A stretch of 53,881 nt of DNA from Bacteroidetes bacterium ADurb.Bin012 (GTDB lineage Bacteria > Bacteroidota > Bacteroidia > Bacteroidales > TTA-H9), in the NCBI GenBank assembly GCA_002071415.1, contig MWFC01000011.1:1-53881 (forward strand), written 5' to 3'. Below the pieces are notes generated by a model, which saw only the letters and a program-made list of their open reading frames with translations, was not told the origin of the DNA and made no database searches. A program made the translations under genes and the position numbers. Of the stretch, positions 45,222 through 53,881 are shown piece after piece; the first letter of the stretch is position 1, and each line of letters starts with the position of its first letter.

Positions 45222-45312
45222 GAAGTTAGGGAATTGGAATTTGGAATTTGTAATTTGGAGTTTGAAAGTTGTCTGTCGTCTGTCGTCTGTTGTTCGTTGT
45301 TTGTTGTTGGTA
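45222..45312 (+). repeat. Heptad repeat island A (13 in-phase 7-nt units)
   Basis: 91 nt divide exactly into 13 heptads, all beginning with G. The first six or seven are G-purine-A-A-T-T-T-like (GGAATTT, GTAATTT, GGAGTTT); the last six are GTCTGTC-like (GTCTGTC twice, GTCTGTT, GTTTGTT). Positions 45239-45263 are the exact 25-nt reverse complement of 51349-51373. The island runs up to the trxB -7 box. Confidence 0.85.
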
Positions 45313-51239: not shown

Positions 51240-51302
51240 TGGTGGCTGGAGGCTGCTGATTAGTGATTGGCAGATGGCAGCTGGTGATTTGTTATTAGTT
51301 GT
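51240..51302 (+). repeat. Heptad island B, left G-rich arm (9 units)
   Basis: 63 nt split into nine heptads, each beginning with T and mostly TGG (TGGTGGC, TGGAGGC, TGGCAGA, TGGCAGC, TGGTGAT). The 10-mer TGGTGGCTGG is shared with the left arm of island C (53141-53150). Confidence 0.8.
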
Positions 51303-51306
51303 AAGT

Positions 51307-51333
51307 AAATGGGAAAAAAATATTATCTTATAA
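51307..51333 (+). pseudogene. Remnant of a four-helix-bundle gene start
   Basis: Nucleotides 51315-51333 are identical over 19 nt to 53208-53226, codons 3-9 of the intact four-helix-bundle gene. An ATG precedes both. After the match the sequence continues directly into the right C-rich arm, so the rest of the gene is missing. Confidence 0.55.
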
Positions 51334-51348
51334 CAACTGATAATCAAA

Positions 51349-51803
51349 AAACTCCAAATTACAAATTCCAAATAATTTTTCAAATTCAAAACTCCAGTTT
51401 CCTAACTTCTCATCTCCCCATCTCCTTTCATCCTTTCCACCATTTCTTCTTTCCTCCCTTCCTCTCTTTTTCCTTTTTAACTTTATAAACTTTTAACTTT
51501 TACTTACTAACCACCAACCACTATCCACTATCCACTATCCACTATCCACTATCCACTATCCACCATTTCTCCCTTCCTCTATTTTTCCTTTTTAACTTTA
51601 TAAACTTTTAACTTTTACTTACTAACCACCAACCACTATCCACTATCCACCATTTCTCCCTTCCTCCCTTTTTAACTTTATAAACTTTTAACTTTATACT
51701 TTTTACTCACTAACCACCATCCACTAATCTCCATTCACTTCGTCTCCCAGTCTCCCGTCTCCATTCTCCCTTTTCCCCTTCCTCCCTTTTCCCGTGTTTT
51801 AAA
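51349..51803 (+). repeat. Heptad island B, right C-rich arm with a duplicated segment
   Basis: A pyrimidine-rich stretch. In-phase heptads run 51490-51580 (13 units, including six CCACTAT), 51605-51667 (nine units, two CCACTAT) and 51723-51792 (ten units such as TCTCCAT, TCTCCCT). A segment beginning at 51467 recurs 115 nt later at 51582 with one difference nearby and a different CCACTAT count. Positions 51349-51373 are the inverted copy of 45239-45263. Confidence 0.85.
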
Positions 51804-52478: not shown

Positions 52479-53006
52479 ATGGATAACTTGTTAAGATGGT
52501 ATGCGGTTTACACTCGTTCCAGGTACGAGAAAAAGTCAGCTTTTCTGTTGAATGAACAGGGTATCGAAGCCTATGTGCCTCTAAGGCGTGTGCTCAGGCA
52601 ATGGAGCGACCGTCGCAAGCTGGTTTTCGAACCTGTTATCCATTCGTATGTTTTCGTAAAAGCCAATAAAATGCTTTACGAGAAAGTATTAGGCATCGAA
52701 GGCGTTGTACGTTATATTTATTTCGGAGGCAAGCCTGCTCCTATCCCCGATCGTCAGATTGAGACAATGAAAACGGTAGTCGGCACCGACCTCGAGATAG
52801 AATGTACGCCCGATTGTTTGAAACCGGGTATGCACGTAATTGTAACCGAAGGTCCGCTGGCCGGAATGGAAGGCGAGTTGGTGCAGTTTCGCGGAAAGCA
52901 GAAAGTAGCCGTTCGGATACAAGCTATTCAACAGGTAATCATGGTAACCCTTTCGCCTCTTATCCTGCAACCTGTCCAGAATACTACTCCAGCTATTGCT
53001 TTGTAG
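52479..53006 (+). CDS. UpxY-family NusG-like transcription antiterminator
   Basis: A 175-aa protein with a NusG N-terminal domain (WYAVYTRSRYEKKSAFLL, YVPLRRVLRQWSDRRK, VIHSYVFVKA) and a C-terminal KOW domain (PGMHVIVTEGPLAGMEGELV). UpxY proteins are encoded first in capsule or exopolysaccharide operons and prevent early termination in their long leaders. Here the next gene is a four-helix-bundle gene inside a repeat island, so any polysaccharide operon must begin beyond the window or has been split. Confidence 0.85.
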   Translation: MDNLLRWYAVYTRSRYEKKSAFLLNEQGIEAYVPLRRVLRQWSDRRKLVFEPVIHSYVFVKANKMLYEKVLGIEGVVRYIYFGGKPAPIPDRQIETMKTVVGTDLEIECTPDCLKPGMHVIVTEGPLAGMEGELVQFRGKQKVAVRIQAIQQVIMVTLSPLILQPVQNTTPAIAL

Positions 53007-53080
53007 CTTTACTGGAACATCTTCTGCTTCTTTTCGCTTAGGTCTCCAATGGTGCGTATGGGACTGAAAGGGCGAAGCTG

Positions 53081-53178
53081 TAGTTGGTAGTTGGTAGTTG
53101 GTAGTTGGTAGTTGGTAGTTGGTAGTTGGTAGTTGGTAGTTGGTGGCTGGTGATTGGTGGATGGTGGATGGTGGTTAG
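53081..53178 (+). repeat. Heptad island C, left G-rich arm (14 units)
   Basis: Nine perfect tandem TAGTTGG units (53081-53143) pass without phase change into TGGCTGG, TGATTGG, TGGATGG twice and TGGTTAG. It ends 22 nt before the four-helix-bundle ATG. Confidence 0.95.
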
Positions 53179-53200
53179 TTATGTCGATGATTATAAGGAA

Positions 53201-53566
53201 ATGAAAGAAAAAATATTATCTTATAAAGATTTGGAGGTTTGGAAGAATGGAGTTAAGTTAGCAAAGGATATTTATGGGCTTACGGAAACGTTCCCCTATC
53301 ATGAACTTTATGCATTGACTTCACAACTTAGAAGGGCTGCGGTATCGGTTTCATCAAATATTGCAGAAGGGTATGTAAGAAATTCGACAAAAGAATTCGT
53401 TCATTTTCTATATATCTCACTTGGTTCATTGGCCGAAATTGATACTCAGTTACAATTGGCAAAAGAATTAAACTATACAGAGAATACGGAGGAATTGCAA
53501 AATTTCATTGAAATGCAAATGCAACAAATCAGGTCATTTATAAACGCACTCAAAAGAAAAATATAA
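53201..53566 (+). CDS. Four-helix-bundle protein (S23 rRNA intervening-sequence / TIGR02436 family)
   Basis: A 121-aa, fully helical protein, normal length for the family. It starts MKEKILSYKDLEVWKNGVKLA, followed by TSQLRRAAVSVSSNIAEGYVR and FLYISLGSLAEIDTQL, the family landmarks. Relatives are encoded in intervening sequences of some bacterial 23S rRNA genes and as stand-alone genes of unknown function; a related fold (Avd) serves diversity-generating retroelements. Start 53201 is chosen because the open frame upstream is the heptad repeat itself. It lies between G-rich and C-rich heptad arms. Confidence 0.9.
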   Translation: MKEKILSYKDLEVWKNGVKLAKDIYGLTETFPYHELYALTSQLRRAAVSVSSNIAEGYVRNSTKEFVHFLYISLGSLAEIDTQLQLAKELNYTENTEELQNFIEMQMQQIRSFINALKRKI

Positions 53567-53583
53567 ACAAGCTAATCACCATT

Positions 53584-53646
53584 TTCTAACCTCCAGTCTC
53601 TAACCTCCAGTCTCCATTCTCCACTCCCCATTCCCAATTTTCTGCG
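53584..53646 (+). repeat. Heptad island C, right C-rich arm, first block (9 units)
   Basis: Nine in-phase heptads: CTCCAGT twice, CTCTAAC, CTCCATT, CTCCACT, CCCCATT and relatives. It begins 17 nt after the four-helix-bundle stop codon. Confidence 0.85.
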
Positions 53647-53698
53647 ACTATCTGCGAGAGTTCCATTCTGCGATATCTACGAGAAATTATTTCCTCTC

Positions 53699-53741
53699 TC
53701 GCTGATTTACCCAGATTTAAAAACGCTGATTTACCCAGATT
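53699..53741 (+). repeat. 18-nt direct repeat
   Basis: CGCTGATTTACCCAGATT occurs twice with a 6-nt spacer (about 53700-53717 and 53724-53741). It sits between the two heptad blocks of the right arm. Confidence 0.85.
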
Positions 53742-53746
53742 AATAA

Positions 53747-53881
53747 TTGATAACTAATAACTTAGTATTTACTTCTTACAACATATAACTGTCAACTGAT
53801 AACTGTCATCCTCCATCCTCCATCCTCCATCCTCCATCCTCCATCCTCCATCCTCCATCCTCCATCCTCCATCCTCCATCC
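53747..53881 (+). repeat. Heptad island C, right arm, second block running off the window
   Basis: Starts with varied units (TTGATAA, CTAATAA, CTTAGTA, CTGTCAA, CTGATAA) and, without losing phase, becomes a perfect CCTCCAT tandem (from about 53810). 19 heptads are visible before the window ends inside the array. Confidence 0.9.

Follow-up and report, generated by a model that had tools for sequence, protein, structure and literature searches.

Heptad-repeat arms around an S23 gene in a Bacteroidota genome: a candidate intervening sequence of protein operons

The closest described counterparts of the locus analysed here are the intervening sequences (IVS) of 23S rRNA. The IVS of Coxiella burnetii encodes S23p, has complementary ends and is cleaved by RNase III, and excision by this enzyme leaves a working, fragmented rRNA (PMC4990558). 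Two to three tandem GACAGAT heptamers, in a number that varies between strains, precede its S23 ORF, and the authors argued that S23p is not expressed there (PMC4990558). Other work concerns short repeats. G-rich heptamers, GGGAATC in Xanthomonas and GGGGA(C/T)T in Nostoc, were described as G-quadruplex repeats without function between aligned ORFs; they form G-quadruplexes in vitro and occur as 70-75 convergent inverted pairs per Xanthomonas genome, and heptamers in general are frequent in the intergenic DNA of bacteria, slippage being given as their origin (PMC4692102). The term S23 has 0 occurrences in that paper. TAACTGA heptamers were reported from Beggiatoaceae, Cyanobacteria and Bacteroidetes, and in the part of the source consulted here no link of these repeats to S23 was found (PMC4679880).

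The window, that is the whole stretch of DNA analysed (contig C11, 53881 nt, of a 154-contig draft genome), ends in an element that shares with the 23S IVS of Coxiella and Leptospira an S23-family ORF in a loop, complementary ends from which a stem could form, insertion in sense with the host transcript and a sporadic, lateral distribution. As in the Coxiella IVS, tandem heptamers adjoin the ORF, both in the window and at the surveyed S23 loci. Unlike the 23S IVS, the S23 elements considered here sit in an operon gap of mRNA and not in 23S rRNA, each arm of their stem is made entirely of 7-nt units, often 10-20 in number, and they are found at many loci in many phyla. With dispersed heptamer repeats (Xanthomonas, Nostoc, TAACTGA and cyanobacterial STRR) the element has in common 7-nt intergenic units between aligned ORFs; inverted convergent pairs were noted among the Xanthomonas heptamers, and presence or absence between related Bacteroidetes resembles that of published heptamer repeats. 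In contrast to the present elements, arm pairing around a gene is not described in the parts of these reports that were covered.

Two further systems invite comparison. RAYT-REPIN systems comprise a small gene with hairpin repeats of its own on either side and numerous gene-less hairpins at other sites, and the small S23 gene likewise has its own hairpin repeats and gene-less hairpins elsewhere; however, S23 is not known to be a transposase and the heptad sequences change quickly. Avd, an accessory protein of diversity-generating retroelements (DGR) that is present in reverse-transcriptase ribonucleoprotein structures, is a four-helix bundle of ~120 aa like S23 (4DWL, 8UB7), but no reverse transcriptase, template or variable repeat adjoins S23 and no RVT_1 gene was found in this genome. 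Unlike IS elements and MITEs, the copies share no defined terminal inverted repeats, the arms differing from locus to locus. The original prediction was unaware of any report connecting heptads with this gene family; one published case exists, the Coxiella IVS, which has its heptamers upstream of the S23 ORF (PMC4990558). This is the sole published link that we found in a search that covered few subscription papers, and a general S23-heptad rule appears to be undescribed in the literature searched.

Anatomy of the element at the window's end

A G-rich, stop-rich 5' arm and, complementary to it, a C-rich 3' arm make up the potential stem of the element, and the S23 gene is the loop. Its parts and its neighbour are:

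52479..53006, + strand: UpxY-family NusG-like antiterminator gene, co-directional upstream neighbour (operon context; NF033644, E 3e-47)
53080..53179, + strand: G-rich 5' arm of 14 heptads, partner of 53573-53639 (TRF, lag-7 autocorrelation, skew)
53201..53566, + strand: S23 / 23S_rRNA_IVP / TIGR02436 gene, 121 aa, four-helix bundle (profile matches, structure model)
53573..53639, + strand: inner 3' arm of C-rich heptads (CTAATCACC.. TCTAACC TCCAGTC ..) (TRF, lag-7, arm pairing)
53640..53738, no strand: spacer separating both C-rich arrays, contains a 2-copy 23-nt repeat
53739..53881, + strand: outer C-rich heptad array, TAACTGA-like units drifting to (CATCCTC)n, stops at the contig end (TRF, lag-7)

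An intact four-helix-bundle gene between opposed heptad arrays had been predicted and was recovered by TRF, by lag-7 autocorrelation and by the PF05635 and TIGR02436 profiles. For the left array, expected to hold 14 units, TRF counted 13.9 copies of a 7-nt unit (53080-53176), and the ATG at 53201 lies 22 nt downstream of it, as proposed. On the right, where 9 plus at least 19 drifting units had been anticipated, we found ~9 units in the inner array (counting a 14-nt pattern from 53572) and ~20 drifting units in the outer one, all in 7-nt phase; the latter ends in perfect CATCCTC x10.7 (53807-53881). Since the contig end falls inside this array, it is truncated by the assembly. Near the S23 gene the lag-7 signal covers 53080-53179, 53591-53639 and 53739-53881. 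The whole window holds seven lag-7 stretches, and the same scan gave none anywhere in it at lags 4, 5, 6, 9, 10, 11 or 13. The left arm contains G and practically no C (skew +1.0), with units drifting from GTAGTTG to TGGATGG / TGGTTAG, the arms on the right being C-rich (skew -0.8). All three reading frames are closed by stops within the 5' arm, and the inner 3' arm, which is its pairing partner, begins 7 nt past the S23 stop codon. A 23-nt repeat, CGCTGATTTACCCAGATT, is present in two copies at 53700-53746 and resembles a motif that adjoins other heptad arrays of this genome (ATCAGCGGATTTAATCTGCG in L079).

The S23 ORF matches PF05635 (23S_rRNA_IVP, E 1e-35) and TIGR02436 (E 2.5e-35), and two profile searches place it well within the family (122.3 bits vs a cut-off of 33.8; 121 vs 24). 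Its structure was predicted with a pLDDT of 95.9, and the solved structures nearest to the model are 2GSC, 2RLD and then Avd (Foldseek prob 1.00, VIA Z 13.8), so that the modelled S23 fold is the fold of Avd. Of 60 related genomes searched with TIGR02436, 45 were positive, with up to 21 copies. An RVT_1 gene was not found in 20 of these 45, including the present genome, most of the genomes being drafts; a dependence of S23 on a reverse transcriptase is thus unsupported. No S23 match occurred among 50,697 phage records, and S23 was present on 31 plasmids, mostly cyanobacterial. The second TIGR02436 match of this genome (L002, G000:C9:47839-48159) is weak and has neither heptad arms nor a stem; it is a divergent gene of the S23 type that lacks the layout of the element.

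A second pair of opposed arms lies between divergent genes, upstream of ispF, at 51240-51793, and a further array lies 6 kb from it:

45229..45311, + strand: one-sided G-rich heptad array, gene-less (lag-7 autocorrelation)
51240..51306, + strand: arm of G-rich heptads belonging to a deleted sister element (lag-7 autocorrelation)
51316..51333, + strand: S23 gene 5'-end remnant AAAAATATTATCTTATAA, identical to 53209-53226 (exact-match search)
51466..51793, + strand: arm of C-rich heptads belonging to the deleted sister element, with ACTATCC, AACTTTT and GTCTCCC units (TRF, lag-7)

Because this arm pair encloses an exact copy, 18 nt long, of the S23 5' end (2 matches of the word, 0.00 expected), we regard it as a deleted relative of the S23 element. 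The one-sided array contains 25 nt that are the exact complement of 51349-51373, a stretch within the deleted element's arm region. Six further heptad arrays were found in ~400 kb of the genome, all of them intergenic and S23-free and several one-sided.

Heptads, arm pairing and operon gaps at S23 loci

The association of heptads with S23 was assessed by comparing the best-hit TIGR02436 loci of the 60 related genomes with those of two control genes from the same genomes, the ParE toxin and the Y1 transposase, counting loci with full flanks and a lag-7 stretch within 250 nt. It had been anticipated that heptad arms would bracket TIGR02436-like genes at a frequency above chance, and this was borne out: 13 of 24 S23 loci had such arrays, compared to 1/20 for ParE and 0/16 for Y1_Tnp (pooled controls 1/36; Fisher p 5e-6). 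Seven S23 loci had a lag-8 stretch. Among 158 scanned loci, 135 had a period, and the best one was 7 (or 14) in 98, 8 in 22 and 9 in 7 of them; block shuffles yielded any period in 18/790. Arms of 8-, 9- or 6-nt units were seen at L010, L015, L049, L055, L157, L182 and L191. The opposite orientation of the arms, G-rich first, was likewise general, with 69/95 5' arms G-rich and 66/90 3' arms C-rich. The 5' arms closed all three frames in 59% of cases vs 22% after shuffling; a 7-nt unit with one stop codon closes three frames within 21 nt. A scan of species-representative genomes gave 80 named loci, most with the same design, from Bacteroidota, Proteobacteria, Desulfobacterota, Cyanobacteria, Clostridia, Acidobacteria, Planctomycetota, Omnitrophota, Chloroflexi and CPR. 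The phenomenon is larger than first noted.

Read side by side, the right arm is the reverse complement of its own left arm in many loci, whatever the unit, for example AGTATCAGGTATCAAGTA / TACTTGATACCTGATACT at one locus and GAGTAGATGAGTAGTCGAGTAG / CTACTCAACTACACGATTGCTCAACTAC at another. Over 71 loci belonging to the order, own arms had a median pairing score of 39.5, swapped arms one of 20.5 and ParE flanks one of 20.75; the own arms exceeded all 140 swaps in 25/71 loci and lay within the top 5% of swaps in 48/71. ParE served as the clean stem control, Y1 transposase loci being unsuitable due to their own hairpins. Against shuffled arms, 98/158 S23 loci reached p<=0.005 and 115/158 p<0.05, compared to 0/20 for ParE, and in roughly a quarter to a third of the S23 loci the pairing was not significant. 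For the window element, the complementarity of its own arms has a z of 8.1 (p<=0.005 vs shuffled arms), which measures pairing potential and not RNA structure, and the innermost pairing, of GGTGGTTAG with CTAATCACC, would close the loop around the S23 gene. The minimum free energy of the whole window copy was not better than that of dinucleotide shuffles (z -0.39), a signal that is absent because a G-rich plus C-rich composition folds well anyway; the pairing claim for the window therefore rests on the arm-level tests. Judged from these sequences, the S23 gene is the loop of one long potential stem of 7-nt, sometimes 8-9-nt, units.

S23 genes are co-directional with both neighbours at 108 of 140 loci (77%), compared to 14/33 controls and 120/259 ORFs of this genome (42-46%), and many elements fit exactly between normally abutting genes, from stop codon to start codon. 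From translated termini and operon knowledge we take the host gaps to be accB-accC in Xanthomonas, fadB-fadA in Flavobacterium, sdhA-sdhB in Capnocytophaga and Dysgonomonas, and ABC permease-ATPase pairs. The conserved 23S rRNA words searched for were absent from all S23 loci with flanks, so these loci are not rRNA insertions. The window element, too, lies in none of the 23S rRNA helices 9, 25 and 45; its upstream neighbour is the UpxY gene.

Filled and empty sites, exchange and selection

Empty sites in close relatives, another expectation of the original prediction, were present in the sdhA-sdhB and fadB-fadA gaps. Among 20 Capnocytophaga species, the sdhA-sdhB gap was empty in 8 (14-16 nt, partly sdhB start) and filled by S23 in 8 (461-577 nt), the others having an 84-nt ORF-less hairpin, a 109-nt remnant, a 1089-nt gap and an unreadable gap, one each. 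The 30 Flavobacterium fadB-fadA loci comprised 5 intact S23 elements, 3 empty gaps (3-5 nt) and 20 ORF-less inserts of 82-223 nt, which fold with z mostly -2 to -7; of the last two, one reads N and one, L288, has a long gap. This gap of 1311 nt has an S23 start (ATGCATCAATTTGAAAAATTAAAGATTTGGCAAAAAGC) at its beginning and no intact S23 frame was found in it; it is probably an interrupted or decayed element. In two Flavobacterium species (L263, L280) a different hairpin repeat, CCCCCTAGCCCCCAAAGGGGG ... CCCCCTCCGGGGGGCTAGGGGG, occupies the fadB-fadA gap. At Xanthomonas accB-accC, 27 of 30 loci had S23 and 3 had a 137-138-nt ORF-less hairpin with a different heptad. Two of these hairpins (L301, L311, L321) are near-perfect GGGACCC stems with MFE of -90 to -110 kcal/mol.

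The clearest case is L337, a filled locus that is sister to L338 within a clade of empty species. The empty junction reads ...AAATAG, AAAGATATGGCAACA, ATG and the filled one ...AAGTAG, TCGTTAGTTATTAGTCGTTAG...GACTAAAACTATACAACA, ATG; no target duplication is visible at this one filled/empty pair. Homologous import from an S23-bearing clade was rejected for L337, the flanks being of the empty-clade type up to the junction. On the Flavobacterium host tree the presence of S23 requires at least 5 changes.

Different S23 types have been exchanged at the same site. The two types at Xanthomonas accB-accC are 57-61% identical in S23 and 99-100% in accC, and those at Flavobacterium fadB-fadA 41-44% in S23 and 93-99% in fadA; dS in Xanthomonas is 0.87 for S23 vs 0.17 for accC. 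Although elements come and go, S23 is under purifying selection, since its dN/dS is 0.18-0.38. S23 pairs at least 60% identical share 2-4 times more arm words than other pairs, and because this sharing is restricted to close S23 relatives, the arms move together with the gene while their sequence turns over fast. A lasting correspondence of arm sequence to S23 sequence was rejected (Mantel null, 11920 pairs), arm k-mers being shared only where the two S23 are at least 60% identical. Near-identical copies, which would mark recent duplication within a genome, were not found among the fetched S23 loci.

Heptads also occur outside the S23 loci of Xanthomonas. In 35 genomes, tandem GGGAATC, GGGATTC and GGGACCC had up to 280, 151 and 124 occurrences, respectively, with reversed-pattern controls near zero. 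The GGGATTC share had a median of 0.35 in genomes with GGGATTC arms at accB-accC vs 0.14 (p 0.0013, kinship uncorrected), and the three genomes with the ORF-less hairpin at accB-accC had 104, 124 and no GGGACCC hits, again uncorrected for kinship. These data suggest that the dispersed heptads and the S23 locus form one system.

Possible nature of the element and its alternatives

We consider that the observed anatomy, pairing potential of the arms, position in operon gaps, presence and absence in relatives, exchange of S23 types and purifying selection probably reflect an IVS-type stem-loop between the cistrons of a protein operon, an equivalent in mRNA of the 23S IVS that is lateral, tolerated and cut by RNase III. 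Heptad enrichment at S23, recurrence of the design in many phyla, the compensatory changes in the Xanthomonas arms, the Coxiella precedent and the fold in common with Avd also favour it. Weighing against it are the quarter to a third of S23 loci whose arms do not pair significantly, the unremarkable folding energy of the whole window copy, the failure to find near-identical copies within one genome, the one-sided S23-free arrays of this genome and the argument of the Coxiella authors that S23p is not expressed. The arms would fold onto each other within the mRNA, and the duplex would be cut by RNase III by analogy with the rRNA IVS. Such an excision could spare both flanking host proteins, so that the element is tolerated; operon gaps would be a permissive niche because excision between cistrons could leave both proteins untouched. 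S23, whose predicted fold is common to the RNA-handling Avd, may bind the element RNA and help its spread or persistence. The arms may grow by 7-nt slippage, while their complementarity could be maintained by hairpin-templated copying (template switching) of one arm from the other; slippage growth and template-switch arm correction follow from established replication biology. ORF-less heptad hairpins may represent deletion or non-autonomous forms.

Slippage is also at the centre of a highly improbable explanation, in which ordinary heptad microsatellites (STRR) collect in gaps shared with S23 and there is neither an element nor a stem function. It agrees with the general abundance of intergenic heptamers ascribed to slippage (PMC4692102) and with the six S23-free intergenic arrays in ~400 kb of this genome, but leaves aside that heptads are enriched at S23 compared to other accessory genes of the same genomes, that the G-rich arm comes first and that at one site the unit sequence was wholly replaced with pairing kept; the locus-specific complementarity of the arms strongly disfavours it. 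Empty and filled sites, lateral exchange and the deleted sister element in the window would equally be expected of a conventional DNA transposon or MITE with heptad arrays as terminal repeats and a transposase acting in trans. We nevertheless regard this as quite unlikely, given that the arms are neither fixed in sequence nor common to copies, that the L337/L338 junction has no target duplication, that near-identical copies within genomes were not found and that the elements fit precisely between the stop codon of one operon gene and the start codon of the next. The proposal of a mobile element with arms like element ends stood as regards enrichment, inversion and empty sites, and neither of the two outcomes that it had named as contrary to it was observed; its arms turned out to be complementary strands of one potential stem, nearer to the rRNA IVS than to IS or MITE ends, and neither a transposase nor a target duplication was seen. 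A DGR-related retroelement, with S23 as the Avd-like partner of a cellular reverse transcriptase, is suggested by the common fold and is very unlikely in view of the 20 of 45 S23-bearing genomes, mostly drafts and including this one, in which RVT_1 was not found.

The position between co-directional genes, the purifying selection on S23 and the G-quadruplexes that heptads form in vitro (PMC4692102) are in line with a hairpin owned by the host for mRNA processing, translational uncoupling or G-quadruplex control, with S23 as a domesticated and not a selfish regulator. This explanation is made unlikely by gaps that are empty in close relatives, by unrelated S23 types occupying a single site and by hosts that are unrelated operons. 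An extension of the IVS-type interpretation, with which it is not exclusive, is a two-part system similar to RAYT-REPIN, in which S23 spreads or maintains ORF-less heptad hairpins in trans. The tens to hundreds of tandem heptads in the 35 Xanthomonas genomes match the type of the accB-accC arms, as do the difference in GGGATTC share and the two GGGACCC-hairpin genomes with 104 and 124 hits; in addition, ORF-less hairpins and S23 elements share sites, and 70-75 convergent inverted heptad pairs exist per Xanthomonas genome (PMC4692102). Since these heptad statistics ignore genome relatedness, and the Mantel result gives no long-term link between S23 and arm sequence, we hold action in trans to be possible and rather doubtful.

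Returning to the IVS-type stem-loop, we tentatively extend it, with some reserve, to S23 genes and heptad hairpins in general, which may make up one widespread, undescribed class of lateral elements, mRNA intervening sequences in operon gaps. The rRNA IVS, the heptamers of Xanthomonas and cyanobacteria and the orphan 'four helix bundle' genes would be its parts, and S23 would act on the stems in cis and in trans. If true, this would account for the identity of many orphan 'four helix bundle' S23 genes and for the abundance of heptamer repeats between bacterial genes, and it would point to a possible origin of rRNA intervening sequences. The sdhA-sdhB gap of Capnocytophaga, filled or empty in the same operon of sister species, offers a natural system in which these ideas are testable. 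Furthermore, where arms retain complementarity during sequence replacement, hairpin-templated concerted evolution becomes directly measurable. In the Xanthomonas stem, sampled in two or three lineages, both partners have changed in four pairs, a number above those of slid or shuffled controls.
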